Virus record (IMG/VR): IMGVR_UViG_3300037847_001396
Location: 1-20,301 of that record
Length of the DNA: 20,301 bases
Strand: one strand, 5' to 3'
Source of the DNA: a virus
A model generated the notes under the pieces. It saw only the letters and a program-made list of their open reading frames with translations. It had not been told where the DNA came from and searched no databases. The position numbers were made by a program, and so were the translations under genes. This document shows positions 3,974-17,928 of this stretch, one piece after another (the first letter of the stretch is position 1; every line of letters starts with the position of its first letter).

Positions 3974-5200
3974 ATGGCTGACAATGATAAAATCAAATCA
4001 GCGATCGAAAGTCTAGGAACTACTTTTGAAGAGTTCAAAAAGACTAACGACGACCGATTGGCTCAAATTGAAAGTAAAGGCTCTGCAGACCCATTAACTG
4101 AAGAGAAATTATCTAAAATCGAAAAAGATTTAGATAAAATCGAAGAAGTTAATCAAGCTGTAGTTAAAGCTGCAAACTCTCAAAAAGACCATGAGGAAAA
4201 ACTGGCTCGTATTGAAAAGATGTTGTCTAGACCTTTATCATCAAAGGACGATGTAGCAAAAGCTGATGAGCAGAAGGTTGCATTCGAATCTTACTTGAGA
4301 AAAGGTAAAGATGGCGTTGAACCAAACGAGTTAAAAGTTTTAACAGCATCTAACGACACAGCTGGAGGATATCTTGCTCCACCTGAATATGTTAGAGAAC
4401 TGACTAAAACTATAATAGAAATCTCACCAATCAGAAGCATTTCAAGAGTGAGAAGTACAACTAACAGATCTATTCAAATTCCAGAAAGAACAGGAACTTT
4501 TTCTGCTGTATTCGTAGCAGAGCAAGGAACTCGTTCTGAAACTACTGGTTATGCGACTGGTCTGAGAGAAATACCTACTCACGAAATGTATGCTTTGGTT
4601 GATATTTCAGAGCAAGAGTTAGAAGATTCAGTCTTCAATCTTGAGCAAGAAATGTCTGCAGAGTTCGGTGAGCAATTCGCAAAAGCAGAAGGTACTGCAT
4701 TTGTAAGTGGTAATGGTGTAGGAAAACCAGAAGGGTTTTTAACAAACTCTGAAATCGGCACAGTTAATTCAGGCAATGGTACTGCATTAACAGCTGATGG
4801 TTTAATTTCACTTTACCATGAGCCAAAAGCAGAGTACGCACAGAATGGTAGTTTCATTATGTCAAGAAGCACATTGGCTGCTGTTAGAAAATTAAAAACT
4901 TCTAGCAACGACTATGTCTTCCAAGCAGGTAATCAACTATCAGGTGGTATGGTGTCAACTATTTTAGGAGCACCATATGTTCAGGCAACTGACATGCCAG
5001 CTGTGGGTGCAGGTAATAAGCCAATCGCTTTCGGTGACTTTAGAAGAGGTTACATGATTGTTGACAGAGTAAACCTTGCGATCTTAAGAGATCCATTTAC
5101 TCAAGCAACTTCAGGTAATGTTAGATATGTTGCTAGAAAGAGAATAGGTGGACAAGTTATCTTACCAGAAGCAATCAAAACTCAAACAGTAAGTGCATAA
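3974..5200 (+). CDS. Major capsid protein, HK97 fold
   Basis: The 408-aa protein has the standard HK97 precursor layout. Residues 1 to about 90 are charged and helical, with heptad-like repeats (LTEEKLSKIEKDLDKIEE), matching the scaffolding delta domain that the protease removes. The mature shell domain follows, starting near LKVLTASNDTAGGYLAPPEY (120-139), with family features such as APPEYVREL, the E-loop and P-domain region SRVRSTTNRSIQIPE, and GNGVGKPEGFLTN. The cleavage site is not obvious; somewhere in 95-125 is an inference. It is placed directly after the protease and before a decoration-like gene, the usual order. Codon choice includes more C-ending codons than the fibre genes, consistent with high expression. 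Confidence 0.96.
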   Translation: MADNDKIKSAIESLGTTFEEFKKTNDDRLAQIESKGSADPLTEEKLSKIEKDLDKIEEVNQAVVKAANSQKDHEEKLARIEKMLSRPLSSKDDVAKADEQKVAFESYLRKGKDGVEPNELKVLTASNDTAGGYLAPPEYVRELTKTIIEISPIRSISRVRSTTNRSIQIPERTGTFSAVFVAEQGTRSETTGYATGLREIPTHEMYALVDISEQELEDSVFNLEQEMSAEFGEQFAKAEGTAFVSGNGVGKPEGFLTNSEIGTVNSGNGTALTADGLISLYHEPKAEYAQNGSFIMSRSTLAAVRKLKTSSNDYVFQAGNQLSGGMVSTILGAPYVQATDMPAVGAGNKPIAFGDFRRGYMIVDRVNLAILRDPFTQATSGNVRYVARKRIGGQVILPEAIKTQTVSA

Positions 5201-5212
5201 TAGGAGGAAACA

Positions 5213-5644
5213 ATGCAAGATCTTAAAAATAATATCGGAGTTGTTCAGTCTTTAGCACCAGCTGCAAGAGATGCAGATGCCAATGGCACAGGAGTAGATT
5301 TACAAGGTTTTGAATCTGCTACAGTTGTAATTGACATGGGTGCGGAAGGAATAACTTTATCAAGCACAAATAAGATTGAAATAGAGTTAGAGCATTCTGA
5401 CGATAATTCAACTTTCACTGATGTAACATCTTCAGCAGATGTAATTGGAGCAACACCAGATTCAAGTGGTGTAATTGCTACTTTTGATGATCCAGCTGAA
5501 GCACCAGCAATCGCTAGTGTTGGTTATATCGGTGGTAAAAGATACATTAGAGCAGTGGCTAACTTCTCTGGAACACATGGCACAGCGACGCCAATGTCAG
5601 TTTCAGTGATTAAAGGTCATGCTAGAAAAAATCCTGTATCTTAA
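5213..5644 (+). CDS. Capsid decoration / head-associated protein-like
   Basis: A 143-aa acidic, beta-rich protein follows the capsid gene at 12 bases, with a strong AGGAGG site. Recognisable segments are VVQSLAPAARDAD, VDLQGFESATVVIDMG, EHSDDNSTFTDV, GYIGGKRYIRAVA and the C-terminal VIKGHARKNPVS. I recall many phages with a protein of this pattern directly after the HK97-type capsid gene, usually annotated as hypothetical or head protein. A decoration or stabilising role on the capsid surface is inferred from position, size and composition, not from a catalytic motif. A hairpin immediately downstream probably marks the end of the high-expression capsid segment. Confidence 0.7.
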   Translation: MQDLKNNIGVVQSLAPAARDADANGTGVDLQGFESATVVIDMGAEGITLSSTNKIEIELEHSDDNSTFTDVTSSADVIGATPDSSGVIATFDDPAEAPAIASVGYIGGKRYIRAVANFSGTHGTATPMSVSVIKGHARKNPVS

Positions 5645-5654
5645 TAAATACTTT

Positions 5655-5684
5655 TGGATGGGGGAGCAACAAATCCCCCATTCA
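5655..5684 (+). terminator. G+C-rich hairpin after the capsid and decoration genes
   Basis: An 11-pair stem is formed by TGGATGGGGGA (5655-5665) and TCCCCCATTCA (5674-5684), with one G-T pair and an eight-base loop. It includes five consecutive G-C pairs in an otherwise A/T-rich genome. It lies in the 59-base gap after the decoration-like gene. No clear run of T follows the stem (TTAAATTAAGG), so it may act as a partial terminator, a transcript-end stabiliser or an attenuator rather than a classic intrinsic terminator. It is the only strong G+C-rich hairpin I noticed between genes. Confidence 0.6.
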
Positions 5685-5703
5685 TTAAATTAAGGAGAAT
5701 AAA

Positions 5704-5937
5704 ATGAAAATAAAAATGTTAGTCGGTGCAACTGGTTCAGCAAATCCTGAAGGCAGTGTTTCAATCAATTACAAAAAAGACGAAATTTATGATATGTCAG
5801 CAGATTGGCAACAAAAATTAGCAAATACTTTTATAAGCAATGATTTAGCAATGGAAGTAAAAGTGGAAGAAGTAAAAGAAGAAAAAATTGAAAAAGAAGA
5901 AAAAAAGACTAAAAAGAAAAAGAAAAGTATATTATAA
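5704..5937 (+). CDS. Small structural protein with Lys/Glu tail
   Basis: This 77-aa protein has a short N-terminal domain (MKIKMLVGATGSANPEGSV, then the segment YKKDEIYDMSADWQQKLANTF) followed by a tail made almost only of Lys, Glu and Val (about residues 50-75). Phages often carry a small protein of this shape near the capsid genes: a beta domain, an xVxE/D segment, then a charged tail. Its function is not known to me. AAGGAG at 5692-5697 supports the start. The stop shares one base with the next ATG (TAATG). It is the first gene after the hairpin, so it may be transcribed less than the capsid gene. Confidence 0.65.
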   Translation: MKIKMLVGATGSANPEGSVSINYKKDEIYDMSADWQQKLANTFISNDLAMEVKVEEVKEEKIEKEEKKTKKKKKSIL

Positions 5938-6311
5938 TGAGTACAGCAGGAATACATAATTTATTATGTGATCAAGGTGCGACATTTAGAAAAACACTAA
6001 CAATGTTTCAAAGTGATGGAACAACTGTAGTAGATTTAACTGGTTATTCAGCTAGAATGAAAATAAAAGATGAAGTTGGAGGAACATTGATTAAAAGTCT
6101 AACGAGTGCAACTAATGGTGGTTTAACTATTGGTGGCTCTGCTGGTAATGTTACTAATGGAGAGATAGATGTTTTAATTTCTGCTACTGATACTGCATCT
6201 TTTGCTGCTCCACAAACTGCTGTTTATGATTTAGAAATAGTAAGTAGTGGTGGTATAGTAGATAGAGTTTTACAAGGTAAATTTATTATAAATCCAGAGG
6301 TAACAGATTAA
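5937..6311 (+). CDS. Conserved beta-rich virion protein (baseplate-upper-protein N-domain-like)
   Basis: The 124-aa protein starts with CDQGATFRKTLTMFQSDG and continues with VDLTGYSARMKIKD, then NGGLTIGG, GEIDVLISATDTASF, AVYDLEIVS and a final GKFIINPEVTD. This arrangement (gap-free beta sandwich, 'DQGATF', 'DLTGYSARM', 'YDLEIV', 'PEVT') is one I recall in many phages as a small tail or baseplate-associated protein, resembling the N-terminal domain of baseplate upper proteins. It would serve as an adaptor rather than an enzyme. It has no ribosome site of its own and probably depends on coupling to the preceding gene through the TAATG overlap. It also shares one base with the next gene. Confidence 0.65.
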   Translation: MSTAGIHNLLCDQGATFRKTLTMFQSDGTTVVDLTGYSARMKIKDEVGGTLIKSLTSATNGGLTIGGSAGNVTNGEIDVLISATDTASFAAPQTAVYDLEIVSSGGIVDRVLQGKFIINPEVTD

Positions 6312-6535
6312 TGGCTAATCAAAGAAACACAGTCACAGTAACAGATACAGGGATAGTAAAAATTGTATCAGTTGGTACACAAGGACCAGCAGGAAGTTCT
6401 GCTTTCTTGGGTAAACCAATAGACCAAACTTCAACTGCAACAGGTAATGAATTATTGCAGTATAAAGCATCAGCAGGAGAATGGAAAGGCGTCACATCTC
6501 CTGATGGTTTAACAATAGACGCAGGAACATATTAG
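6311..6535 (+). CDS. Short collagen-like tail fibre adaptor
   Basis: A 74-aa protein with a beta-rich start (MANQRNTVTVTDTGIVKIVS), one collagen-like turn (GTQGPAGSSAF), then ELLQYKASAGEWKGV and the ending LTIDAGTY. Marine phages often carry a 'VSVGTQGPxG' protein in the fibre region, and longer versions have extended Gly-X-Y repeats. Here the collagen part is reduced to two or three triplets. The last seven residues (TIDAGTY) and the 24 bases coding for them are identical to the end of the next fibre gene, suggesting exchange or duplication. Two in-frame stops separate it from that gene. Probably an accessory or linker piece of the fibre. Confidence 0.6.
   Translation: MANQRNTVTVTDTGIVKIVSVGTQGPAGSSAFLGKPIDQTSTATGNELLQYKASAGEWKGVTSPDGLTIDAGTY
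6511..6534 (+). repeat. 24-bp direct repeat, copy 1
   Basis: The sequence encoding the C-terminal TIDAGTY of the short fibre gene, including the first two bases of the stop, is identical over 24 bases to 7663-7686 at the end of the next gene. Copies lie 1152 bases apart in direct orientation and in the same reading frame. Confidence 0.9.
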
Positions 6536-6547
6536 AAGGAGTGAGTC

Positions 6548-7687
6548 ATGGCTAATACTATAAAGATAAAAAGAAACACTGGCTCAACAGCACCAACTAC
6601 TTCAAATATTGCGCAAGGTGAATTAGCGATATCAGAATCTAATAAGATTCTATTTTATCGTGATGCCAGTGATAATATCTTAAAGATTGGTGGTGAAGGA
6701 GCATTCTTAAGATCCGACCAGAATGATACATTCACTGGTAATTTAACAATTACAGGGAATTTAGAAGTACAAGGAGATACAGTACAACAAGATGTAGCAA
6801 CTTTAACAGTTGAAGATCCATTAATTGAACTAGCAAGAAACAACACTGGTTCAGATGCAGTTGATATTGGTTTCTTCGGAACATACGATACATCTGGTTC
6901 AACTGATTTGTATGCAGGTATATTTAGAGATGCAAATGATAGTGGTAAGTTTAAACTATTTAAAGATTCTCAATCAAAACCTACAACAACAGTAAACACA
7001 AGTGCAACTGGATATACAGCTGCAACTTTAGTAGCAAACATTGAAGGTAATATAGCAGGATCGCCAACTATTACAGCTGGTACTATTGCTACATCACTAG
7101 ATATGAATGCAAATGAGTTAATACTAGATGCTGATGCTGACACAAGCATAACTGCAGATACTGATGACCAAATAGATATTAAAGTCGCTGGTGCCGACCA
7201 AGTTAAATTTCTAGATGGTTCAATAGTTCCTTCAGTTGATGATGATGTAGATTTAGGTAGTAACTCACTTAAATTTAAAGATATTTACATTGATGGAACT
7301 GCACAATTAGATGCAGCAAATGTAAATGGTTCAGCAGTTGTTAATGTAGGAGATGCACAAACTCTTACAGGTGCTAAAACTTTACAAGTACCATTATTTC
7401 AAGACAATAGTGATACAAGTAAAAAAGTTACATTTAGCATGGCTAGTATTGGAACAAGTACAACAAGAACATTTACATTCCCAAATGCAAATACAACTTT
7501 TGTTGGTACTGATACTACAGATACATTAACAAATAAAACTTTAACATCTCCAACTATCGCAAAGATACAAGGTGGTGGTACTAATACTAATGGACATGTT
7601 GTTCCTAATTTAGCAGATGATACATTTGCATTATTAAACGCAACTCAAACATTAGCAAATAAAACAATAGACGCAGGAACATATTAA
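6548..7687 (+). CDS. Tail fibre-like protein
   Basis: The 379-aa protein begins with a module common at the start of phage fibre proteins (MANTIKIKRNTGSTAPT, then IAQGELAISESNKILFY, residues 1-47). Next comes GNLTITGNLEVQGDTVQQDV (64-83), which leads into VEDPLIELARNNTGSDAVDIGFFG, then Ala/Thr/Asp-rich repeats, DVDLGSNSLKFKDIYIDG and TLTNKTLTSPTIAKIQGG. I recall these segments, often together, in the tail fibres of cyanophages and other marine phages. They form extended beta-rich shafts. It probably contributes an adsorption fibre. A GAAGGAG site at 6535-6541 precedes the ATG. The gene ends with the same 24 bases as the gene before it. No chaperone or peptidase domain is visible at the C-terminus, and many relatives are longer, so this may be one part of a split fibre. 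Confidence 0.8.
   Translation: MANTIKIKRNTGSTAPTTSNIAQGELAISESNKILFYRDASDNILKIGGEGAFLRSDQNDTFTGNLTITGNLEVQGDTVQQDVATLTVEDPLIELARNNTGSDAVDIGFFGTYDTSGSTDLYAGIFRDANDSGKFKLFKDSQSKPTTTVNTSATGYTAATLVANIEGNIAGSPTITAGTIATSLDMNANELILDADADTSITADTDDQIDIKVAGADQVKFLDGSIVPSVDDDVDLGSNSLKFKDIYIDGTAQLDAANVNGSAVVNVGDAQTLTGAKTLQVPLFQDNSDTSKKVTFSMASIGTSTTRTFTFPNANTTFVGTDTTDTLTNKTLTSPTIAKIQGGGTNTNGHVVPNLADDTFALLNATQTLANKTIDAGTY
7663..7686 (+). repeat. 24-bp direct repeat, copy 2
   Basis: Exact second copy of the sequence at 6511-6534, again coding TIDAGTY just before the stop codon (here TAA rather than TAG). Confidence 0.9.
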
Positions 7688-7704
7688 TGAATAGATAGGA
7701 GAAT

Positions 7705-8154
7705 ATGCCAGAACAAGATAAAGAACTTTCAAAACTTAAAGAAGCATTAAAAATTAAAACAGCTGAAAGCATGGTCAGCAACAATAAGGTTGGTGAGTAT
7801 GTAGGTAAACTTCTGGATGCTGAAACTAAAATTTTAATTTTAAGTGATGAAAATAAAAAGTTATTAGAAAAAGTAGATGAGCATGAACAGATAAAAGCAG
7901 ATCTAAACGATAAAAATAAAACTGTTCACTCTCAAGAGAGTAATGTTGTTGCACTTCGTGATAAAGTTACAACAATGAAGAAGCAACATCAAGCTGAATT
8001 AGAACATCATGGTAGAACTATTGATGACTATCAAAGAAAGTTAAAAGAAAAAGAAAAAATGATAGAAACAATGGGTGAAGAAATAAAAAATTTAAAAAGT
8101 GGTAAAAGGAAAAAAAGGAGCAAGAAGTTAGATGTCAAACACAGTAATTCTTAA
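7705..8154 (+). CDS. Coiled-coil protein in the fibre region
   Basis: This 149-aa highly charged protein is predicted helical almost throughout, with heptad-like Leu/Ile/Val spacing in about residues 20-130 (segments such as LLDAETKILILSDENKKLLE and ALRDKVTTMKKQHQAELEHH). It ends in a very basic tail (KSGKRKKRSKKL). It has no catalytic motif. An AGGAGA site at 7697-7702 supports the start. The last 23 bases overlap the next gene in another frame. A structural rod, an assembly chaperone or a scaffold for fibres would fit the shape. I do not recognise a specific family. Confidence 0.65.
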   Translation: MPEQDKELSKLKEALKIKTAESMVSNNKVGEYVGKLLDAETKILILSDENKKLLEKVDEHEQIKADLNDKNKTVHSQESNVVALRDKVTTMKKQHQAELEHHGRTIDDYQRKLKEKEKMIETMGEEIKNLKSGKRKKRSKKLDVKHSNS

Positions 8155-8329
8155 GAAAAATAGTTCAGCAGGTAATGCACCATCAGCATCAGATTTATCA
8201 GCAGGAGAGTTAGCTGTAAATACAGCAGATGGAAAATTATTTACTAAACATACTGATGGGACAGTTAAAACTATTGCTGAAGCACAAATTAGTGAGGATG
8301 CGACTGCTTTGGCTATCGCTTTAGGATAA
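8132..8329 (+). CDS. Stand-alone fibre N-terminal module
   Basis: All 65 residues match the module that opens the fibre at 6548: NTVILKKNSSAGNAPSASDL parallels NTIKIKRNTGSTAPTTSNI, and GELAVNTADGKLFTKHTDG parallels GELAISESNKILFYRDASD. Longer phage fibres usually carry this 'GELAxNTADGKLF' unit at the N-terminus, where it attaches the fibre to the tail. Here it is a separate gene with only a short tail (ISEDATALAIALG). It may cap or adapt a fibre, or be the remnant of a split gene. AAGGAG at 8115-8120 precedes it, and it overlaps the coiled-coil gene by 23 bases. Confidence 0.7.
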   Translation: MSNTVILKKNSSAGNAPSASDLSAGELAVNTADGKLFTKHTDGTVKTIAEAQISEDATALAIALG

Positions 8330-8330
8330 T

Positions 8331-8666
8331 ATGGCAAATACATTTAAGTTAAAAACAAAAGATGGTTCTTCAGTAAATGCAGATACATTTATGACTGTTT
8401 ACACTGTTCCTTCATCAACATCAACAATCGTACTTGGATTAACTATCGCTAATATAACAACACAGTCTATTGAAGTAACTGTTTTTTTAGAAAACAATGA
8501 TGGTGATAATGTTAATGTTGCAAAACTAGCATCAGTGCCAGCAAAAAGTTCACTAGAGTTAATGACAGGTAATAAGTATGTTATGGAGGCAAGCGATATT
8601 CTTAAAGTGAAATCAGATATAGCAAATAGTGCAGATGTCACTTTATCAATTATGGAGATATCGTAA
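8331..8666 (+). CDS. Small beta-rich virion protein
   Basis: A 111-aa protein: MANTFKLKTKDGSSVNAD, TVYTVPSSTSTIVLGLTIAN, SIEVTVFLENNDGDN, then SVPAKSSLELMTGNKYVMEASDILKVKSD and a C-terminal SADVTLSIMEIS. I recall proteins with this 'TVYTVPxxTxxIVxGLxxAN' pattern in marine cyanophages and pelagiphages, encoded among tail genes and annotated as structural or hypothetical. A beta-sandwich fold is likely. It starts one base after the previous stop and shares one base with the next ATG (TAATG), so it sits in a tightly coupled string of appendage genes. Its exact location in the virion is not known. Confidence 0.65.
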   Translation: MANTFKLKTKDGSSVNADTFMTVYTVPSSTSTIVLGLTIANITTQSIEVTVFLENNDGDNVNVAKLASVPAKSSLELMTGNKYVMEASDILKVKSDIANSADVTLSIMEIS

Positions 8667-8682
8667 TGGCAAGTTATATAGG
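8666..8682 (+). repeat. 17-bp repeat at fibre gene start, copy 1
   Basis: ATGGCAAGTTATATAGG, coding MASYIG, is identical to 12079-12095. The proteins diverge right after it, so the two genes share a conserved N-terminal tag. Confidence 0.8.
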
Positions 8683-10195
8683 TCGTAGTCCATCTACGAC
8701 TAAAGAGTTAGATGATAATGAAGTAACAACTGCAAAGATTAATAACAGTGCAGTAACATCTGCAAAGATTGCAGATGGCACAATCGCAATAGCTGATTTA
8801 TCAGCAACTGGAACAAAAGACAATACTACATTTTTAAGAGGAGATAATACTTTTCAAGTTGTTAATACTGATTTATCTGCAGACACATCTCCACAATTAG
8901 GTGGTAATTTAGATGGTAATGGAAACACAATAGATTTATCTGGTAACACTACTCATATAAATTTACCTAGAGGATCAACTGCACAACAAACAACTCCAGC
9001 ATCAGCTAACGAAGGTGCTATTAGATATAACACAGACAATAATGTTGTATATTATTCTAATGGATCTGAATGGATAAAAATTTCTGGTATTACACCAAAT
9101 TTAAACACTGTAACAGGAAAAATTTTAGTTGGTTCAGCAACTACACTAACACTAGCTGGGGAAGGTTTTTTATCATCAGGTCTCGTTGTAAACTTTTTAC
9201 AAACAGCAGATAGTATTAATGCAAATGTAACTGTAACTCCATCATCAGATACTGCTGCATCAGTAGCTGTCCCATCATCAGTTTATAGTAATGTTACTGG
9301 TGGTAATGCTGTAACTATAAAAGTAACTAATAGTGATAGTCTTTCATCTAGTGGTGTAAACACAACAGCAGTAACTCTTCCTAGTGGTGGAACCATATCT
9401 AACTCTGGTAATTATAGAATACACACTTTTACTTCTTCTGGCACATTTACTAACACGATAGCTGGTTTATCAGCAGAATATTTAATTATTGCTGGTGGTG
9501 GTGCTGGTGGTAATAATGATGGTGGACAAGATGCTTCTGGTGGATCTGGAGGTGGTGGAGCTGGAGGTTATAGGTCTGGTTCTACAACTGTTTCTAATGC
9601 TACAGGATACACTGTAACCATAGGTGGTGGTGGATCTGGTGGTAGTGCAAGTGGAGGAAACTCATCTTTCAACAGTATTACAAGTACAGGAGGAGGTGGT
9701 GGTGGACAAGTTTCATCTAACACAGGAAGTAATGGAAGTAATGGTGGCTCTGGTGGAGGAGCTGGTACTGATGATAGCTCTACTTCTTTTAGTGGAGGTT
9801 CTGGAACATCTGGACAAGGAAATAATGGTGGTGGCGGATCTGGACCAGGAGGAGCTGGTGGTGGCGGAGCTGGTGCTGTTGGTGCAGATGGAGGTAGCAA
9901 TCACGAAGGTGGTAATGGTGGTGCTGGTACAGCATCTTCAATCACAGGATCTAGTGTAACTAGAGCTGGTGGTGGTGGAGGTGGAGTTGGTGCTGGTGGC
10001 GTATCTCCTGGATCTGGAGGTTCTGGTGGTGGCGGAACTGGTGCATCAAGAAATGTATCTGATGCTACTGCTGGTACTGAAAACACTGGTGGTGGAGGAG
10101 GTGGTGGTTGTGATACTAACAATGCCTCTGAAACACAAGGAGCAAATGGTGGAAAAGGAATAGTAATAATTAGATATGACACAACAAGTTTATAA
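8666..10195 (+). CDS. Glycine-rich fibre / adhesin-like protein 1
   Basis: The 509-aa protein is modular. Residues 1-65 begin MASYIGRSPS and carry a fibre repeat (NSAVTSAKIADGTI). Residues 66-140 include PQLGGNLDGNGNTIDLSGNT and EGAIRYNTDNNVVYYSNGSEW. An IPT/Ig-like domain follows (about 141-238). From about 248 (YRIHTFTSSGTFTN, then AEYLIIAGGGAGG) to 500 lies a glycine-rich domain dense in GGGG and GGxGG, closing with GKGIVIIRY. This last domain type is common in phage tail proteins. In the gp38 adhesin of T4-like phage S16 glycine-rich segments form packed polyglycine helices that display host-binding loops, and a similar role is inferred here. It starts with the same 17 bases as the gene at 12079. 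Confidence 0.8.
   Translation: MASYIGRSPSTTKELDDNEVTTAKINNSAVTSAKIADGTIAIADLSATGTKDNTTFLRGDNTFQVVNTDLSADTSPQLGGNLDGNGNTIDLSGNTTHINLPRGSTAQQTTPASANEGAIRYNTDNNVVYYSNGSEWIKISGITPNLNTVTGKILVGSATTLTLAGEGFLSSGLVVNFLQTADSINANVTVTPSSDTAASVAVPSSVYSNVTGGNAVTIKVTNSDSLSSSGVNTTAVTLPSGGTISNSGNYRIHTFTSSGTFTNTIAGLSAEYLIIAGGGAGGNNDGGQDASGGSGGGGAGGYRSGSTTVSNATGYTVTIGGGGSGGSASGGNSSFNSITSTGGGGGGQVSSNTGSNGSNGGSGGGAGTDDSSTSFSGGSGTSGQGNNGGGGSGPGGAGGGGAGAVGADGGSNHEGGNGGAGTASSITGSSVTRAGGGGGGVGAGGVSPGSGGSGGGGTGASRNVSDATAGTENTGGGGGGGCDTNNASETQGANGGKGIVIIRYDTTSL
9490..10130 (+). repeat. Low-complexity GGT/GGA-rich tract 1
   Basis: This stretch encodes the glycine-rich domain of the gene at 8666-10195. Runs such as GGTGGTGGTGGA recur many times. 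The repetitive triplets open long reading frames in other frames on both strands (Pro-rich on the minus strand); these are by-products, not genes. The tract is similar to 11461-12025 and could recombine with it. Confidence 0.85.
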
Positions 10196-10209
10196 AAAAG
10201 GGATATATA

Positions 10210-10584
10210 ATGGCACATTATGCTAAAGTAAGAGATGGTAAAGTAATCAATGTTATTGCAGCTGAAGCTGATTTCTTTGATACTTTTATTGATGAAACTC
10301 CAGGAGAGTGGATACAAACATCTTACAATACAAAAGGTGGAGTGCATAAACTAGGAGGAACACCTCTCAGAAAAAACTATGCTGGTATTGGATATACTTA
10401 TGATAAAAATTTAGACGCATTTATTCCACCAAGACTTTTTCCATCTTGGACACTTAATGAAACGACTTGTTTGTGGGAACCACCAATAACAAAACCAAAC
10501 ACAGGAAGATATAAATGGGATGAAGAATTATATCAAAGCGATAACACAAAAGGATGGGTAGAGGTAACAGATGACGAAAGCTAG
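10210..10584 (+). CDS. Conserved marine-phage structural protein
   Basis: The 124-aa protein contains segments I recall from cyanophages and other marine phages: MAHYAKVRDGKVINVIAAEA, WIQTSYNTKGG, GGTPLRKNYAGIGYTYDKNL, DAFIPPRLFPSWTLNETTCL and WEPPITKPNTGRYKWDEE. In T4-like cyanophages the equivalent lies among tail or fibre genes and is called a conserved structural or hypothetical protein. Aromatic and proline content is high, and there is no enzyme motif. It sits between the two glycine-rich fibre genes and overlaps the second by 14 bases. Its sharp conservation compared with the flanking low-complexity genes suggests a fixed structural interface. Confidence 0.75.
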   Translation: MAHYAKVRDGKVINVIAAEADFFDTFIDETPGEWIQTSYNTKGGVHKLGGTPLRKNYAGIGYTYDKNLDAFIPPRLFPSWTLNETTCLWEPPITKPNTGRYKWDEELYQSDNTKGWVEVTDDES

Positions 10585-12064
10585 AGATTTTGCAGATATA
10601 GCAGGAGCAGTTAGTAATGGTAAAATTGCTAATTCAGATGTTAATGTATCTTTTGAAAACATAGTAGATACAGGAACAGAAGGAACTAAAATTGCAAAAG
10701 GAACAACAGCACAAAGAGGATCTACACAAGGACAATGGAGATTTAATAGTACAACTGGTTTTTTTGAAGGTTATGATGGTACAACTTTTAAAGCACTAGA
10801 CACAGCACCTACTGTATCAAGTGTATCACCTACAGATGTTGATAGTGGTAGTGGATCGACAACAAGTTTTACAATAACAGGAAGTGGCTTTTCTTCAGGT
10901 TCAACAGTTAAATTTATAGCAGCAAATGGAACTGAAGTAACAGCAAACTCAACGACTGTAAATAGTACAACACAAATAACAGCTGTTGAAGATGATAGTA
11001 GTTTTGCTAACGCACAAGAACCATATGATGTAAAAGTTATAAGTGCTTCAGGTTTATCAGGACAATTAGATGACCAAATTAATGTAGATACTGCACCAAC
11101 TTGGTCAACTTCAAGTGGTTCATTAGGAACTGTTTATGATAGTGCTAGAAGTTCTGCGAGTTTATCTGCATCTGCAACAGATGCAGAGGGTGACACTATT
11201 ACTTATAGCGTTCAATCAGGCTCATTGCCTGCAGGTGCTTCTTTAAATAGTTCATCAGGTGCTATAACAGGATACAATGCTGTTGGTTCAGATACAACTT
11301 CTAGCTTTACATTAAGAGCAACAGCAGGTGGTAAAACTGCAGATAGAGCATTTTCAATAGTAGTAAAAGCACCAGTTTCAACAACTTATTCTTACACAGG
11401 TTCAAACCAAACATTTACTGTTCCTACAGGTGTTACTGCAATTACTTTAGATATTAAAGGTGCAGGTGGTGGTTCTCAAGGAAACTCTGGTGCAGGTGGT
11501 ACAGGTGGTAGAACACAAGGAACAAGAACAGTATCAGCAGGTCAATCATACATTATTATCGTAGGAGAAAGAGGAAAAACAACTTCTTCAGGTTCATCAT
11601 TTGGCGGAGGTGGCTCTTACACTTCAGGTCATGGTAATGGTGGTGGAGGTGGAGGTCTCTCTGGTATCTTCTTAACATCATTCACTCATGGTAATTCAGT
11701 TGCTATCGCTGGTGGTGGTGGAGGTGGTGCTTATGGAGGTGCCTCTGGTGGAGCTGGTGGTGGTTCATCTGGTGGCTCTGGCTCTGGTGGTGGCGGAGGT
11801 GGTGGAACACAAAGTTCTGGTGGCTCTGGTGCTGGTGGTGCAGGATCTGGTTCTGCTTTATCAGGTGGCTCTGCTTCTGGAGGTGGTAATGGTGCTTCTG
11901 GTGGAGGTGGCTACTATGGTGGAGGTGGTGGTGCCGAAGGTAGCACTGACTATCCAGCTGGTGGAGGTTCTGGTTATATAGGTGGACTTCAAAGTGGTGC
12001 TACTACAACTTCTGGTGGAGGAAATTCAACAAACAACGATGGTTCAGTAGTTATAAGTTATTAA
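10571..12064 (+). CDS. Glycine-rich fibre / adhesin-like protein 2
   Basis: A 497-aa modular protein. Residues 1-77 form a fibre-type head (MTKARDFADIAGAVSNGKIA, QGQWRFNSTTGFFEGYDG). Residues 78-172 fit an IPT/TIG-like domain (PTVSSVSPTDVDSGSGSTTS, FTITGSGFSSGSTVKFI). Residues 174-268 fit a putative Ig (He_PIG-type) domain (APTWSTSSGSLGTV, YSVQSGSLPAGASLNSSSGA). From about 270 (TYSYTGSNQTFTVPTGVTAI) to 492 is a glycine-rich domain with GGGGGG, GGGGYYGGGGG and GGGSGYIGG, ending VVISY. The pattern resembles the glycine-rich domain of ALK/LTK receptors and bacterial relatives. It is probably a receptor-contacting or spacing part of the appendage. It overlaps the preceding gene by 14 bases, with GAGGT at 10561-10565 as ribosome site. 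Confidence 0.8.
   Translation: MTKARDFADIAGAVSNGKIANSDVNVSFENIVDTGTEGTKIAKGTTAQRGSTQGQWRFNSTTGFFEGYDGTTFKALDTAPTVSSVSPTDVDSGSGSTTSFTITGSGFSSGSTVKFIAANGTEVTANSTTVNSTTQITAVEDDSSFANAQEPYDVKVISASGLSGQLDDQINVDTAPTWSTSSGSLGTVYDSARSSASLSASATDAEGDTITYSVQSGSLPAGASLNSSSGAITGYNAVGSDTTSSFTLRATAGGKTADRAFSIVVKAPVSTTYSYTGSNQTFTVPTGVTAITLDIKGAGGGSQGNSGAGGTGGRTQGTRTVSAGQSYIIIVGERGKTTSSGSSFGGGGSYTSGHGNGGGGGGLSGIFLTSFTHGNSVAIAGGGGGGAYGGASGGAGGGSSGGSGSGGGGGGGTQSSGGSGAGGAGSGSALSGGSASGGGNGASGGGGYYGGGGGAEGSTDYPAGGGSGYIGGLQSGATTTSGGGNSTNNDGSVVISY
11461..12025 (+). repeat. Low-complexity GGT/GGA-rich tract 2
   Basis: Encodes the glycine-rich domain of the gene at 10571-12064 with strongly repeated GGTGGWGGT units. 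It is comparable to the tract at 9490-10130 and likewise produces false reading frames in other frames. Confidence 0.85.
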
Positions 12065-12078
12065 TGAGGAAATTTTAA

Positions 12079-12095
12079 ATGGCAAGTTATATAGG
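12079..12095 (+). repeat. 17-bp repeat at fibre gene start, copy 2
   Basis: Identical to 8666-8682 and again coding MASYIG at the start of a fibre gene. Confidence 0.8.
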
Positions 12096-13107
12096 AATAT
12101 CACCCCCAGAACAAACAGGAATCGTAAATAGATTCAAATACACTGCGTCTGGTAGTCAAACTGCATTTAGTGGTAATGATGCTAATGGTAATAGTTTATT
12201 TTATATTTCTACTAATCCAGTTTTAGTTTTTATGAATGGTATTCAACTTGTTGAAGGAACTGACTTTACAAAAACAAGTAACACAGTCATAACATTAGCA
12301 AGTGGTGCAGCTGCAAATGACATTATAGAAATTTTAAGTTTTGGTTCATTTGATTTAAACAATGCTACAACTACAAGAACACAATTAGGTTTAGGCACAG
12401 CAGCAACGCAAGATGTAGGAACATCAGCAAATAATGTAGTACAATTAAATGGTTCAGGTGCTTTACCTGCAATAGATGGTAGTAATTTAACAGGTGTAGC
12501 AGAAACAAAACCTACAATATCAGGTATAAGTCCTAGCACAATAACAAACGCACAAACTTCAGTAACAATCAGTGGTACTAATTTTACATCAGTACCATTA
12601 GTTCAAGCAATAAATTCAACAGGTGCAATAACTTTTGCTGATAGTGTTACTTTTACAAATGCAACAACTATTGTTGCTGCGTTTACCTTGACTACTGATG
12701 GCACTTATTTTATAAGAGTAGAGAATCCAAATGGTTTAGCTGTAAGAAGTTCAAGTGCATTATTAACAGTTTCAGATGCACCTACTTGGACAACTTCAGC
12801 AGGAAGTTTAGGCACAGTTGCTGCTGGAGCAAGTGTTAGTTTATCAGTTGCTGCTAGTGGTGATAGTACCATTGCTTATAGTGAAACAACAGCTGTTTTA
12901 ACAAGTAATGCTAATACTCCAGCTGCAACTATGAATTTAAGTTTAAATAGTTCTAGTGGTGCGATAACAGGAACAGCACCATCACCAACAGGTGCAACTA
13001 CTTATACTTTTACTTTAAGAGCAACAGACCAAGAATCACAAACTGCTGATAGACAATTTACAATAACAGTATCAGTAGGAGCAACAGGAGGAGGACAATT
13101 TAACTAA
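12079..13107 (+). CDS. Fibre-like protein with Ig-type stalk domains
   Basis: This 342-aa protein starts with MASYIGISPPEQTGIVNRFK and a domain I recall in marine fibre proteins (YTASGSQTAFSGNDANGNSL, VLVFMNGIQLVEGTDFT, LASGAAANDIIEILSFGSFD; residues 20-92). A fibre linker follows (LGLGTAATQDVGT and GALPAIDGSNLTGV). Next are an IPT/TIG-like domain (144-231: PTISGISPSTITNAQTSVTI) and a putative Ig domain (233-332: APTWTTSAGSLGTV and SLNSSSGAITG), a paralogue of the one in the gene at 10571. It has no glycine-rich tip and ends TGGGQFN. The codons for that ending supply AGGAGGAGG at 13086-13094, the ribosome site of the next gene. Probably a stalk or adaptor for neighbouring adhesins. Confidence 0.75.
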   Translation: MASYIGISPPEQTGIVNRFKYTASGSQTAFSGNDANGNSLFYISTNPVLVFMNGIQLVEGTDFTKTSNTVITLASGAAANDIIEILSFGSFDLNNATTTRTQLGLGTAATQDVGTSANNVVQLNGSGALPAIDGSNLTGVAETKPTISGISPSTITNAQTSVTISGTNFTSVPLVQAINSTGAITFADSVTFTNATTIVAAFTLTTDGTYFIRVENPNGLAVRSSSALLTVSDAPTWTTSAGSLGTVAAGASVSLSVAASGDSTIAYSETTAVLTSNANTPAATMNLSLNSSSGAITGTAPSPTGATTYTFTLRATDQESQTADRQFTITVSVGATGGGQFN

Positions 13108-14531
13108 TGGCTAGCACAAAAATAGAATATGCAAAAGGTGGTTCAGATTTTAGAACTAAAGGGACAATTTCTTGCTGGGTTAAAAGAGGTAGTGTAGGTG
13201 TTCAACAAGATATTTGGTCTTGGGGAGAAAATAATTCTTCTGATTGTTATTTAAGATTTGATACTGCAGATAATGTTGAAATGCATTGTGATGGAGCTGG
13301 AGGAACTTTTAATACAACTCAATTATACCGAGATGTTAATGGTTGGTATCATTTTGTATTTTCTTTAGATGGTTCTAATAGTACAGCGAATTTAAGGAGA
13401 AGATTTTGGATTAATGGTGTTCAAATAGATGAAGGTAGTGGTAAAAATGATGTATCTGCATTTAGTAATGCTGTTTTAGGTTGGCATAGTACACAAGATT
13501 TATGGATAGGTGCTAGAGCAAGAAGCCAACAAAGTGGAGATTTAGAATATTTCGATGGTTTAATTTCTCATTTTCATTATTGCAGTAATTATTCTTATGC
13601 TGCAAGTGATTTCGGTAGTTTTGACAGCACAACTGGTGAATGGAAAATAAATACTGCTCCTAATGTTCAATATGGTTCAGAAGGATTTTTCTTAAAAATG
13701 GAAGATAGTTCTAATATGGATTTAGATAGTAGTGGCAATAATAAAACTTTAACTACAAGTGGAACACTTACAAAAACAGAAGATTGCCCAAGTAATGTTT
13801 TTTGTACGATGAATCCTCTTAATCATGATTATGCATCTACAAATACAGATATAGGTGCAGGGAATACTTTTGTATATCCTAGAGCAAATGACAATTATAA
13901 TTATGCAGTTTCAACTTTAGGTATGCCAAAAGGTAATGGTAAATTTTATGCAGAAGTAAAATATGTAACTTATGATAATGTTACAGCAGGTGTTGGTATT
14001 GTTGATATGGAATATGTTTCAGAAATATTTTATCAAAATAGAAACTTACCAGAACAAACAGCATCTACATATATAGGTAGAGTTATATATTTAAAAAATG
14101 GTTACTCAATAGTACCAAGCACAGAAAATAATAGTTATGGTAGCAGTTATGCAAATGGAGATATTATTCAAATTGCTTGTGATATGGAAAATGGTGCAAT
14201 TTATTTTGGAAAAAATGGTACATGGCAAAACTCTGGAGATCCTACATCTGGTGCAAGTAAAACTGGTGCAATAGATATATCGTCACAATCTTGGTACACA
14301 GGATCTACACATTGGGGATTTTGGTGTGGAGATAAAGCAAGTAACCATGATAGGTTTGCATGGAATTTTGGTAATGGTACTTTTGCAAGTCAATCTGGTA
14401 GTTTTGGTTCCCAAAGTTATAGTGCAACAGCAGTATCTAGTGCAGGAACTAATGCAAGTAATAATGGAGTGTTTGAATACAATGTACCAACTGGCTACAC
14501 AGCTTTATCAACAAAGGGGTTAAACAAATAA
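13107..14531 (+). CDS. LamG-like plus SPRY-like lectin-fold virion protein
   Basis: The 474-aa protein appears to combine two concanavalin-A-like folds. Residues 1-165 fit a LamG/laminin-G type domain (TKGTISCWVKRGSVG, QDIWSWGENN, GWYHFVFSLDGSN, RRRFWINGVQID, LWIGARARS, FDGLISHFHY). Residues 276-424 fit a SPRY/B30.2-like domain (GKFYAEVKY, TAGVGIVD, GDIIQIACDMENGAIYFGKN, GTWQNSGDP, WGFWCGD, WNFGNG). The junction (SEGFFLKMEDSS and TEDCPSNVFCTMNPLNHD) is typical of marine phage fibre proteins. Such folds often bind glycans or proteins, so a host-binding role is likely but inferred. It ends VPTGYTALSTKGLNK, a motif that in relatives I recall runs straight on into the repeat unit encoded by the next gene. 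Here a stop at 14529-14531 and a new start at 14533 separate them. Confidence 0.75.
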   Translation: MASTKIEYAKGGSDFRTKGTISCWVKRGSVGVQQDIWSWGENNSSDCYLRFDTADNVEMHCDGAGGTFNTTQLYRDVNGWYHFVFSLDGSNSTANLRRRFWINGVQIDEGSGKNDVSAFSNAVLGWHSTQDLWIGARARSQQSGDLEYFDGLISHFHYCSNYSYAASDFGSFDSTTGEWKINTAPNVQYGSEGFFLKMEDSSNMDLDSSGNNKTLTTSGTLTKTEDCPSNVFCTMNPLNHDYASTNTDIGAGNTFVYPRANDNYNYAVSTLGMPKGNGKFYAEVKYVTYDNVTAGVGIVDMEYVSEIFYQNRNLPEQTASTYIGRVIYLKNGYSIVPSTENNSYGSSYANGDIIQIACDMENGAIYFGKNGTWQNSGDPTSGASKTGAIDISSQSWYTGSTHWGFWCGDKASNHDRFAWNFGNGTFASQSGSFGSQSYSATAVSSAGTNASNNGVFEYNVPTGYTALSTKGLNK

Positions 14532-14532
14532 T

Positions 14533-15927
14533 ATGGCATACACAACAATTAATAAATCCACAGAACATTTCAATACTAAACTTTATTCTGGTAATGGCTC
14601 TACAAATAATATTACAGGAGTTGGTTTCCAACCTGATTGGCTATGGATTAAATCTAGGGGTGCGACAGAAAATCATGTTTTATATGATTCAGTTAGAGGT
14701 GTTACAAAACAATTATATTCTAATACTTCTGGAGCAGAAAGTACAAATGCAACTGCTTTAACTGCTTTTGCGTCAGATGGTTTTAATCTTGCAACAACAA
14801 ATACTAATACGAATGCTAATGGTGCAAATTTTGTATCATGGAACTGGAAAGCAGGAGGAACAGCACCTGCTATAACTTATACAGTTAAAGTAGTTTCAGA
14901 TAGTGGAAACAAATATAGATTTGATGACTTTGGTACAAGTGCTGTAACATTAGATTTACAAGAAGGTGGCACATATACTTTTGACCAATCAGATAGTTCA
15001 AATGCTGGTCATCCATTAAGATTTTCAACAACATCAAATGGTACTCATGGTGGTGGTAGTGAATATACAACTGGTGTAACAACAACAGGAACTCCAGGAA
15101 GTTCAGGAGCAAAAACAGTTATTACAGTTGCATCAGGTGCTGCAACTTTATATTATTATTGTACACAACACTCTGGTATGGGTGGTCAAGCAAATACAAA
15201 CTCATTATTTGGTTCTTCTAATTTTGCTGGTAGCATACAAACAACTGTATCAGCAAATCAAACTGCAGGATTTAGTATTGTTAGATATACAGGAACAGGA
15301 AGCAATGCTACTATTGGTCATGGTTTAGGTGCAGTACCACATATGTATATCGCAAGAAATATTACTGATAGTGAACAATGGACAACTTACCATGTAGGAA
15401 TGGATACTTCTGCACCAGAAGACCATCACATGAGATTAAACACTACTGATTCAAGAGTAGATGAGGCATCAGTTTGGAATGATACAGCACCAACAAGTTC
15501 AGTATTTAGTGTTGGCAGTTCTGGTGCACCTAATGGAAGTGGTGATAATCATATTGCTTATTGTTTCACAAATATAAATGGTTATAGTAAGTTTGGACAT
15601 TTTATTGGGAATGGCAATACAAATGGTTCATTTATATACACAGGATTTAGACCTGCATGGGTTATGATAAAAAGGAGAGATAGTGCAGACAACTGGACTA
15701 TTTGGGATGATGCAAGAAATACTAATGGTGATTACAATTGGACATTAGAAGCAGACACTACTTCTGGTGAATGGAATGATAGTAATTTTAGACATGAATT
15801 TTTATCTAATGGTTTTAAATTAAGGAATAGTTTTGCACAAACAAATGCAGATGGTGGTACTTATATATACATGGCATTTGGTCAAACATTAGTCGGGAGT
15901 AACGATATTCCCAATAACGCAAGGTAA
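14533..15927 (+). CDS. Triple-repeat fibre protein with inserted cupredoxin-like domain
   Basis: A 464-aa protein of a type I associate with marine phage appendages. Three related units can be read: residues 18-108 (YSGNGSTN, GFQPDWLWIKSR, YDSVRG, ASDGFNL, WNWKAGG), 252-355 (YTGTGSNATIGHGLGAVPH, IAYCFTNINGYSKFG) and 357-450 (IGNGNTNGSFIYTGFRPAWV, MIKRR, LSNGFKL, YIYMAFG). Between units one and two lies a separate domain (about 115-222): TYTFDQSDSSNAGHPLRFST, GTPGSSGAKTVITVASG and LYYYCTQHSGMGG. It has the ligand pattern of a type 1 copper protein: His 160, then Cys 210, His 213 and Met 216 in a C-x2-H-x2-M loop. Copper binding is an inference from these residues; the repeats are seen directly. 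AAGGGG at 14514-14519 precedes the ATG. Confidence 0.78.
   Translation: MAYTTINKSTEHFNTKLYSGNGSTNNITGVGFQPDWLWIKSRGATENHVLYDSVRGVTKQLYSNTSGAESTNATALTAFASDGFNLATTNTNTNANGANFVSWNWKAGGTAPAITYTVKVVSDSGNKYRFDDFGTSAVTLDLQEGGTYTFDQSDSSNAGHPLRFSTTSNGTHGGGSEYTTGVTTTGTPGSSGAKTVITVASGAATLYYYCTQHSGMGGQANTNSLFGSSNFAGSIQTTVSANQTAGFSIVRYTGTGSNATIGHGLGAVPHMYIARNITDSEQWTTYHVGMDTSAPEDHHMRLNTTDSRVDEASVWNDTAPTSSVFSVGSSGAPNGSGDNHIAYCFTNINGYSKFGHFIGNGNTNGSFIYTGFRPAWVMIKRRDSADNWTIWDDARNTNGDYNWTLEADTTSGEWNDSNFRHEFLSNGFKLRNSFAQTNADGGTYIYMAFGQTLVGSNDIPNNAR
14875..15198 (+). other. Cupredoxin-like domain within the fibre gene
   Basis: This segment encodes residues 115-222 of the fibre protein. It begins YTVKVVSDSGNKYRFDDFG, runs through a beta-rich body, places His 160 in AGHPLRF and ends with the Cys-x2-His-x2-Met loop at 210-216. 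Known cupredoxins such as amicyanin and plastocyanin use one upstream His plus a C-terminal Cys, His and Met. It interrupts two homologous repeat units cleanly. Confidence 0.68.
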
Positions 15928-15930
15928 ATT

Positions 15931-17928
15931 ATGGGAGTATTTGATAACATAAGAAATATTTTTAAAACTAAAAAAGTTGAAACAAAACAAGTTTCATCTA
16001 ATTATGCTATGGTTAGTAATGTAAATGTTGCTGGTCAAAAGTATAGTTATGAAGATTTAGTAAAAGAAGGATATGAAAATAATGCTATTGCTTTTAGATG
16101 TATCAATGAAATATCACAAGGTGCTGCTGGAGTTAGATTAAAATTATTTAGAGGTAAACTAAATGTTGATGACCATCCATTATTAGATTTACTTGCTAGA
16201 CCATCCCCAACAAAAGGATATGTAGAATTATTTGAATCATTATATTCGTTTTTATTATTATCTGGTAATAGTTATTTAATTGGTACTGGTGCTGAAGGCT
16301 CTGAACCAAAAGAGTTATATTGTTTAAGACCTGATAGAATTAAAATAATTCCAGGGCAAACGAATTTACCAGAAGCATATCATTATTCAATAAATGGTAA
16401 AACAATATCTCAATATGATGTAAATCAAGAAACAGGTGAATCACCAGTAAAACATTTTAAATTATTTCATCCTAAAAGTGACTATTTAGGTTTGTCTCCT
16501 TTAGTTGCTGCTGCGAGTAATATTGATAGTCATAATTTAACAAACAGACATAATGTATCATTATTATCAAATGGTGCTAGACCTAGTGGTGCAGTAATAT
16601 TTAAACCAAAAGATGAAACTGGTTCAACAGTTCAATTAAGTGATACTCAAAGAGCACAAATATTAGCAGATATGGAAACTCGTTTTAGTGGTACTAATAA
16701 TGCTGGCAGACCTATGTTACTTGAAGGTGATTTTAGTTTTCAACAAATGGGTATGTCACCAAAAGATATGGACTTTTCAGTATTAAAGAAAATGTCAGCA
16801 ATAGATATAGCATTATGTTTTGGTGTACCAGCACAGTTAGTTGGTATTCCTGATGCACAAACTTATAACAATATGCCAGAAGCAAGACTTGCATTATATG
16901 AAGAAACAATTATACCAATATTAAGAAGAATACAATCTGACTTAAATGAATGGCTAACACCACAGTTCGGAGATGATTTAAGATTAGAATATGATGTTGA
17001 TAGTATTCCTGCTATGGCAGAAAGTAGAAAAAGAGTTTTTGAATCTGTTGTTAGTGGAGTTAATTCTGGTATCTTAACTCGTAACGAAGCAAGAGAAAAA
17101 TTAGGTTACGATCCAATAAAAGGAGGAGATACTTTATTCATTAGTGCTACTATGATGCCAATTAGTTTAGCTGGTGATAGTGTTGGTGATGATGAAGATG
17201 AAAAGAGTTTAGAGATAACAGATGATTATCCAGATGAGAAAGCAATATCAGATATTGATTTAAGACCAACAGATAGCATGGCAGCAGAAGCAAAAAGAGG
17301 TTTGGCTTGGAGAAAAGAACATGGTAGAGGTGGTACTATGGTTGGTGTTGCTAGAGCAAATCAATTAGTAAACAAAGAAAACTTATCACCAAGCACAGTA
17401 AAAAGAATGTTTAGTTTCTTTAGTCGTCATGAAGTAGATAAACAAGGTCAAGGATTTAGTCAAGGTGAAGATGGATATCCATCAGCTGGAAGAATAGCAT
17501 GGGCTTTGTGGGGTGGCGATCCTGGATTTAGTTGGGCTAGAAAGAAAGTTGGTCAGATAAACAGAGAATCTGAAAAATTAGATAATGATTATACTGAACA
17601 AGAAACAGAAAGTCAAGAGGATATAGAAGAAAAACAACTTACTGCTGCAGTAAAAGAAGGACTAAAAAACAAGGTAAAAGACCATAATGAAAAACATGGT
17701 GATAAAAAAGGTAAAAGAGTTACTGTTAGGATGTTAGGTGCTGTATTTAGAAGAGGTATAGGTGCTTATAGAACAAATCCACAATCAGTAAGACCTAATG
17801 TAAGAAGTGAGGAGCAATGGGCATATGCTAGAGTAAATGCATTTTTATTTGCTGTAAGGACAGGTAAATTTAGATCTGGTCAGTTCGATAGAGATTTACT
17901 TCCTTCTGGTCACCCATTAAAAACATAA
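15931..17928 (+). CDS. Portal protein (HK97 type) with two extra C-terminal domains
   Basis: The 665-aa protein is far longer than an ordinary HK97-family portal of about 400-430 aa. Residues 1 to about 415 are the portal: NNAIAFRCINEISQGAAGVR, HPLLDLLARPSPTKGY, LSGNSYLIGTG, LRPDRIKIIPG, GLSPLVAAASNID, FGVPAQLVGIPDAQTYNN and ILTRNEAREKLGYDP. It forms the ring at the capsid vertex that the terminase and connectors dock on. An acidic linker (416-445) leads to a second domain (445-543: DSMAAEAKRGLAWRKEHGRG, LSPSTVKRMFSFFSRHEVD, GYPSAGRIAWALWGGDPGFS) and a third (570-665: GDKKGKRVTVRMLGAVFRRG, GAYRTNPQSVRPNV, AYARVNAFLFAVRTGKF, DLLPSGHPLKT). Both extra units are ones I recall fused to phage head proteins; their roles are unknown to me. 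The gene lies about 14 kb from the terminase, not next to it. Confidence 0.93.
   Translation: MGVFDNIRNIFKTKKVETKQVSSNYAMVSNVNVAGQKYSYEDLVKEGYENNAIAFRCINEISQGAAGVRLKLFRGKLNVDDHPLLDLLARPSPTKGYVELFESLYSFLLLSGNSYLIGTGAEGSEPKELYCLRPDRIKIIPGQTNLPEAYHYSINGKTISQYDVNQETGESPVKHFKLFHPKSDYLGLSPLVAAASNIDSHNLTNRHNVSLLSNGARPSGAVIFKPKDETGSTVQLSDTQRAQILADMETRFSGTNNAGRPMLLEGDFSFQQMGMSPKDMDFSVLKKMSAIDIALCFGVPAQLVGIPDAQTYNNMPEARLALYEETIIPILRRIQSDLNEWLTPQFGDDLRLEYDVDSIPAMAESRKRVFESVVSGVNSGILTRNEAREKLGYDPIKGGDTLFISATMMPISLAGDSVGDDEDEKSLEITDDYPDEKAISDIDLRPTDSMAAEAKRGLAWRKEHGRGGTMVGVARANQLVNKENLSPSTVKRMFSFFSRHEVDKQGQGFSQGEDGYPSAGRIAWALWGGDPGFSWARKKVGQINRESEKLDNDYTEQETESQEDIEEKQLTAAVKEGLKNKVKDHNEKHGDKKGKRVTVRMLGAVFRRGIGAYRTNPQSVRPNVRSEEQWAYARVNAFLFAVRTGKFRSGQFDRDLLPSGHPLKT

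Follow-up and report, generated by a model that had tools for sequence, protein, structure and literature searches.

The stretch of DNA analysed here (the window, 20,301 nucleotides of the IMG/VR virus record IMGVR_UViG_3300037847_001396) contains on its plus strand, at 14533..15927, a gene for a virion appendage protein of 464 amino acids, in which a first DUF7483 repeat is followed by a predicted cupredoxin domain and then by DUF7483 repeats 2 and 3. The assignment draws on the match to PF24299 (DUF7483; E 9.7e-114, 380.3 bits against a cut-off of 27 bits, which places the protein in the family), on matches to the PHROGs 19943 (virion structural) and 24898 (tail fiber), and on the repeat layout. 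Judged from its family, the protein is probably located in the virion. The gene order in the window is unusual in that a long block of appendage genes (5213-15927) separates the major capsid gene (3974-5200) from the portal gene (15931-17928). Two proteins encoded in this block (8666-10195 and 10571-12064) end in long poly-glycine-rich domains resembling the glycine-rich adhesin tips of phages, and the former has a Gly_rich_2 domain. The portal protein has a C-terminal extension (approximately residues 440-665) that matches a separate PHROG of unknown function, 2859.

An optional domain between DUF7483 repeats

The translations of the open reading frame and of the stretch at 14875-15198 agree with the initial annotation, which had described a discrete domain at residues 115-222 between two homologous repeats. 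The domain and its position between repeats hold, but the number of repeats does not, as comparison with 80 loci of the same protein family indicated three homologous repeats of about 110 amino acids each, with the domain between repeat 1 and repeats 2-3. Repeat 1 (residues 1-114; 14533..14874, plus strand) was delimited by an iterated profile search against relatives, and repeats 2 and 3 (residues 223-464; 15199..15924, plus strand) by the repeat layout and by their relatives in 68 phage records, many of which are pelagiphages. Residues 115-222 (14875..15198, plus strand) form an extra module precisely at the junction of repeats 1 and 2. About four of the 80 DUF7483 relatives have the module in this place (L148, L149, L151 and L198); the first is identical to the window, and repeats 2-3 of the other three match those of the window at approximately 68, 54 and 44%, respectively. 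In the other DUF7483 loci with complete ends the repeats directly adjoin each other without the module. Because so few of the relatives carry it, the module seems to be dispensable at this junction.

Where the domain is present, it is strongly maintained. In three pairs of genes with the module at the same junction, dN in the domain was 0.055, 0.056 and 0.106 compared to 0.27-0.58 in the repeats, being 4-10 times lower than in the repeats of the same genes. Synonymous divergence (dS) was similar in the domain and the repeats in two of the three pairs; in the third (L151) the domain had the lower value, and a recent exchange of the domain is possible there. As dN was lower at a similar dS in two of the three pairs, purifying selection acts much more strongly on the domain than on the protein surrounding it. 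Recent arrival was also considered as a cause of the low divergence of the domain, and the similar dS in these two pairs speaks against it.

Predicted cupredoxin fold and putative copper ligands

The fold of the domain was approached by modelling, structural comparison, profile comparison and a bridging protein from a host. The AlphaFold2 model of the domain, built on an alignment of 31 natural relatives, is all-beta with nine strands (pLDDT 87.7, pTM 0.83), and in Foldseek all 50 of the 50 PDB matches listed were type 1 copper proteins, including copper nitrite reductase, two-domain laccases, CueO, rusticyanin, AcoP and amicyanin (ranks 36-37). None of these matches has more than a modest E-value (best E 8.6e-4; TM reaches 0.64), but as a list they are uniform. 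A Foldseek search with the full protein found nothing on DUF7483, and matches came through the cupredoxin only. At the level of profiles, hhalign aligned a diverse phage profile with plastocyanin-type cupredoxins of marine genomes at E 9.5e-8, with all four of the His, Cys, His and Met ligands in register; this strength depended on the more diverse phage profile and on the plastocyanin-type targets, since against a mixture of azurin and plastocyanin types the match had been weak (E 6e-4). The bridge is a secreted Prochlorococcus cupredoxin, which scored 32 bits with the phage profile and 30.2 bits with Pfam Copper-bind (above the cut-off of 21.2), and is 37% identical to Prochlorococcus plastocyanin-like proteins. 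Residues 115-222 thus almost certainly have the fold of type 1 copper proteins, a Greek-key beta sandwich of seven to eight strands, and both the structural and the profile comparison support the proposal of the initial annotation.

The domain is nevertheless distant from the described families. Alone it reached 13.4 bits against PF00127 Copper-bind, below the cut-off of 21.2 bits, and PF00127 matched nine of the 31 close relatives at E up to 1 (best E 0.013). The amicyanin equivalog TIGR02657 (cut-off 110.2 bits) did not match the domain of the window and gave 16-21 bits for baseplate-type relatives. Searching the PDB sequences with phmmer and the single domain gave nothing useful, and with a profile of the close relatives gave antibody chains and pseudoazurin, none of them significant. 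In a tree, the phage domains are set apart from the classical cupredoxins with 98% support; the support in the tree is too low for counting captures from hosts. No Pfam or NCBIfam family was found for a cupredoxin of phage appendages.

The ligands lie where they were first proposed. The codon of the first His ligand, H160 (in GHPLRF), is at 15010..15012 on the plus strand, and the ligand loop C210-x2-H213-x2-M216 occupies 15160..15180 on the same strand, with C210 at 15160-15162, H213 at 15169-15171 and M216 at 15178-15180; the C-x2-H-x2-M spacing is identical to that of amicyanin. In the model, H160 comes just before the strand at 52-55, C210 ends the strand at 96-100, and H213 and M216 fall in the loop that leads to the last strand, which is the cupredoxin arrangement. 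Amicyanin- and plastocyanin-type proteins (PF00127) share the Greek-key beta sandwich, the His before strand 4 and the C-x2-H-x2-M loop before the last strand. In contrast to them, the domain of the window is part of a virion appendage, has no signal peptide, scores below the cut-off and belongs to a separate clade, and its first His is followed by Pro and not by Asn, as in the HPxHLHG segment of multicopper oxidases. The type 1 copper domains of two-domain laccases and of copper nitrite reductase are the best structural matches among those listed, but the domain of the window is single and its HPLRF segment lacks the ligands for type 2 and type 3 copper, which indicates that there is no catalytic centre. 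The secreted Prochlorococcus cupredoxins (the 148-aa type, L134/L494) belong to the same family by profile and share the HPFYIKT and YYYVC-x2-H segments, but they are free cell proteins with a C-x2-H-x4-M spacing and are not parts of virions.

The initial annotation had made its proposal depend on the conservation of the His/Cys/His/Met set among relatives, and the set is conserved also in distant ones. After clustering at 90% or at 70% identity, the ligand positions rank first or close to first in conservation; the full set of four is present in 99 of 100 clusters at 90% and in all 34 at 70%. Among 419 distinct near-complete domains, 401 have the first His, C-x2-H and Met, whereas the axial position is Gln in ten, Leu in one and Thr in one; C-x2-H is absent from six, two of which are contig ends. 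Axial Gln and Leu are natural variants of type 1 copper sites. Two relatives have lost all the ligands together. Because some of the loci had been found through patterns containing the motif, the search was repeated as a control with three queries cut before the ligand loop, and of the loci found in this way 227 of the 232 that could be scored have the complete set. The five exceptions are three near-identical proteins with Cys replaced by Ser, one locus cut off where the stretch that was read ends but showing CHYHSG, and one without a recognisable loop. This rules out a motif-biased search as the cause of the conservation, as the invariance across diverse relatives rules out a chance origin of the pattern. 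H172 was rejected as a ligand because it is missing in short-loop relatives. Among the loops, two of the three assigned to the metal end from strand order and topology are the most conserved, with a mean conservation of 0.78 compared to 0.50-0.70 elsewhere, and the non-ligand residues of the ligand loop have 0.58. Going by the conserved residues, the domain very probably binds copper at an intact type 1 site.

Two kinds of natural variants were seen. In the near-identical pelagiphage-type fibres L277, L278 and L279, Cys is replaced by Ser with the rest of the site intact (YYQSSSHDYM), which makes them a natural knock-out of the putative copper site. Cyanophage fibres of about 1600 amino acids (L321, L323, L338 and L340) have three cupredoxin domains each, and in the third (approximately residues 1404-1521) the axial Met is replaced by Gln (WCHYHTGQGG), as in stellacyanins.

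Distribution among phages and cells

The domain was confirmed in at least 595 viral contigs in a scan of IMG/VR. Among 50,697 phage records, the window type was found in 26, the cyanophage type II in 52, the pelagiphage type in 29 and the baseplate type in 327, these counts overlapping. The initial annotation had pointed to similar YxYCxxHSGMG segments in other marine phage proteins, and both scans show that they are widespread there. Among the matches listed, the isolates infect Synechococcus, Prochlorococcus, SAR11 and OM43, and the rest are marine single-cell or fosmid records. In further baseplate-type relatives of unstated habitat the ligands are kept in nearly all. The proteins carrying the domain are tail fibres, including those of SAR11 and OM43 phages, a gp7-type wedge protein (whose second copy keeps the site) and a gp9/10-like baseplate connector, which has a T4_gp9_10_N domain at its N-terminus and the cupredoxin at its C-terminus. 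Through this C-terminus the 327 baseplate-type records, essentially all cyanophages, are related to the others. The C-terminus of the cyanophage gp9 also gave a weak independent match to the copper nitrite reductase 2vmj (E 0.005). The cyanophage proteins share the N-terminal domain with gp9 and gp10 of T4 but differ in the C-terminal part, which is a cupredoxin without a match to T4 PDB chains. Presence in the particle has been detected for one member: the 498-aa baseplate wedge protein S-SZBM1_206, whose C-terminus is a cupredoxin domain with the HCHM site, was identified at the protein level by mass spectrometry of CsCl-purified particles (9 peptides, 24.9% coverage; PMC9146016).

Relatives of the domain are also found in cells, namely SAR86, other gammaproteobacteria, Prochlorococcus and Marine Group II archaea. 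Genomes of Pelagibacteraceae (L091, L096, L103 and L116-L120) have T7-like tail fibre genes with the domain, and these are probably prophages, as a near relative, phage HTVC028P, has an integrase. Prochlorococcus MIT 9201 encodes a 2970-aa Ig-like repeat protein (L086, ORF from 2033) with one window-type cupredoxin inside a repeat; in the tree it is close to the domain of the window, and a recent exchange of the domain between phage and cell is likely. Giant viruses may have cupredoxin-like proteins too, as the BFVD matches to the model include beta-sandwich proteins of Pithovirus LCPAC302 and Marseillevirus LCMAC201/202.

Possible role of the domain

We infer that the domain serves a structural or docking role rather than acting as a lure or an electron carrier, and we lean towards this role for three reasons: all kinds of appendage (fibres, connectors and wedge) retain the site, a catalytic centre is missing, and the variable neighbours of the exposed His argue against one fixed partner in electron transfer. 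Conservation in all appendage kinds also favours a general structural or docking use over a particular receptor. From what is generally known of cupredoxins and of the site of fibre assembly, the domain would be made and folded metal-free in the cytoplasm of the host and would take up copper outside it, during or after lysis. Bound copper would hold in place the loops of the metal end, where cupredoxins contact their partners, and the face fixed in this way could bind a neighbouring virion protein or the surface of the host, the domain not acting as an enzyme. However, cupredoxins fold in the apo form as well, and Ig-like domains serve comparable purposes with no metal at all, and therefore structure alone fails to account for the kept axial ligand. 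Taken as a whole, a true cupredoxin with an intact type 1 copper site, which is an optional module in the appendages of marine tailed phages, loads copper outside the cell and has a structural or docking use, has in our estimate about an even chance of being the right description.

The cupredoxin fold itself is known, but its use as a repeated and putatively metal-competent module in the adsorption machinery of phages did not appear in the open-access literature searched, where cupredoxin- or plastocyanin-like domains in phage tails were not found. If copper is bound, many of the most abundant phages of the ocean (those of SAR11, OM43, Prochlorococcus and Synechococcus) carry copper sites on their fibres or baseplates, some of them with several domains in one polypeptide. 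Phage adsorption would then involve a metal and perhaps redox chemistry, marine viruses might count as a pool of copper-binding colloids, and whether tail metals help infection could be tested directly. A broader suggestion, which we regard as doubtful, is that type 1 copper domains entered the adsorption machinery of marine phages repeatedly and in several families, and that the copper has a part in infection by signalling contact, by acting as a redox trigger or by luring the copper uptake of the host, as a parallel to the Trojan Horse proposed for iron.

The domain could also be a copper lure, the metal-loaded form mimicking a secreted cupredoxin and being recognised by an outer-membrane copper uptake receptor of the host. 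This would be the copper version of the Trojan (Ferrojan) Horse idea, in which the iron in phage tails has been proposed as a lure (PMC11705849), and a precedent for the receptor is found in Pseudomonas aeruginosa, where secreted azurin binds the TonB-dependent copper transporter OprC (PMC6907878). Domains of the same family are present in proteins of likely hosts (Prochlorococcus, SAR86 and other gammaproteobacteria), and the isolates with the domain among the matches listed are marine or cyanobacterial. Iron-binding HxH fibres of the T4 gp37 type likewise have metal sites on tail appendages, reported also in marine phages, but they differ in fold, in motif and from the metal predicted here, and no HxH motif (two His two residues apart) occurs in the 464-aa protein. 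A lure is nevertheless unlikely, as conservation of the site is just as high in the gp9/10-type baseplate connectors, for which receptor binding is not an obvious role, and the residues beside the exposed His vary freely.

Less probable still is electron transfer, in which the copper site would swap an electron with a partner on the host surface or in the virion and report contact with a living cell. The ligands and their spacing are those of electron-carrying cupredoxins such as amicyanin, and the axial changes are to Gln or Leu, which tune the redox potential and do not abolish the site. Electron carriers, however, usually keep a docking patch around the exposed His, whereas the x positions of C-x2-H are highly variable here (TQ, TN, SV, SS, QN and others), and no redox partner domain was seen adjoining the cupredoxin.

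It is improbable, to a slightly greater degree, that the domain is an ordinary Ig-like spacer whose four residues bind another metal such as zinc, or none. Beta-sandwich spacers are common in phage fibres, the window itself has two He_PIG Ig domains, and a few members of the family have lost the ligands and kept the fold. Against this, the soft Cys/Met/His set is near-invariant with Met replaced mainly by Gln, and the low dN and the joint loss of all ligands in two cases indicate that a type 1 site is under selection.

That the domain is a photosynthetic plastocyanin (petE), acquired as an auxiliary metabolic gene, can practically be dismissed, although the annotation of a relative in Synechococcus phage S-SCSM2R as PetE could be cited for it. 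The domain is part of appendage and baseplate proteins, has no signal peptide, is found as well in phages infecting SAR11 and OM43, which do without plastocyanin, and is apart from the classical cupredoxins in the tree; the S-SCSM2R protein is itself of the virion family and adjoins structural-type genes. For the two reasons given last this gene (L525:2300-2806) may not be a photosynthesis gene. At least one cyanophage "petE" thus looks like a virion-type cupredoxin, and some counts of auxiliary genes may need checking.
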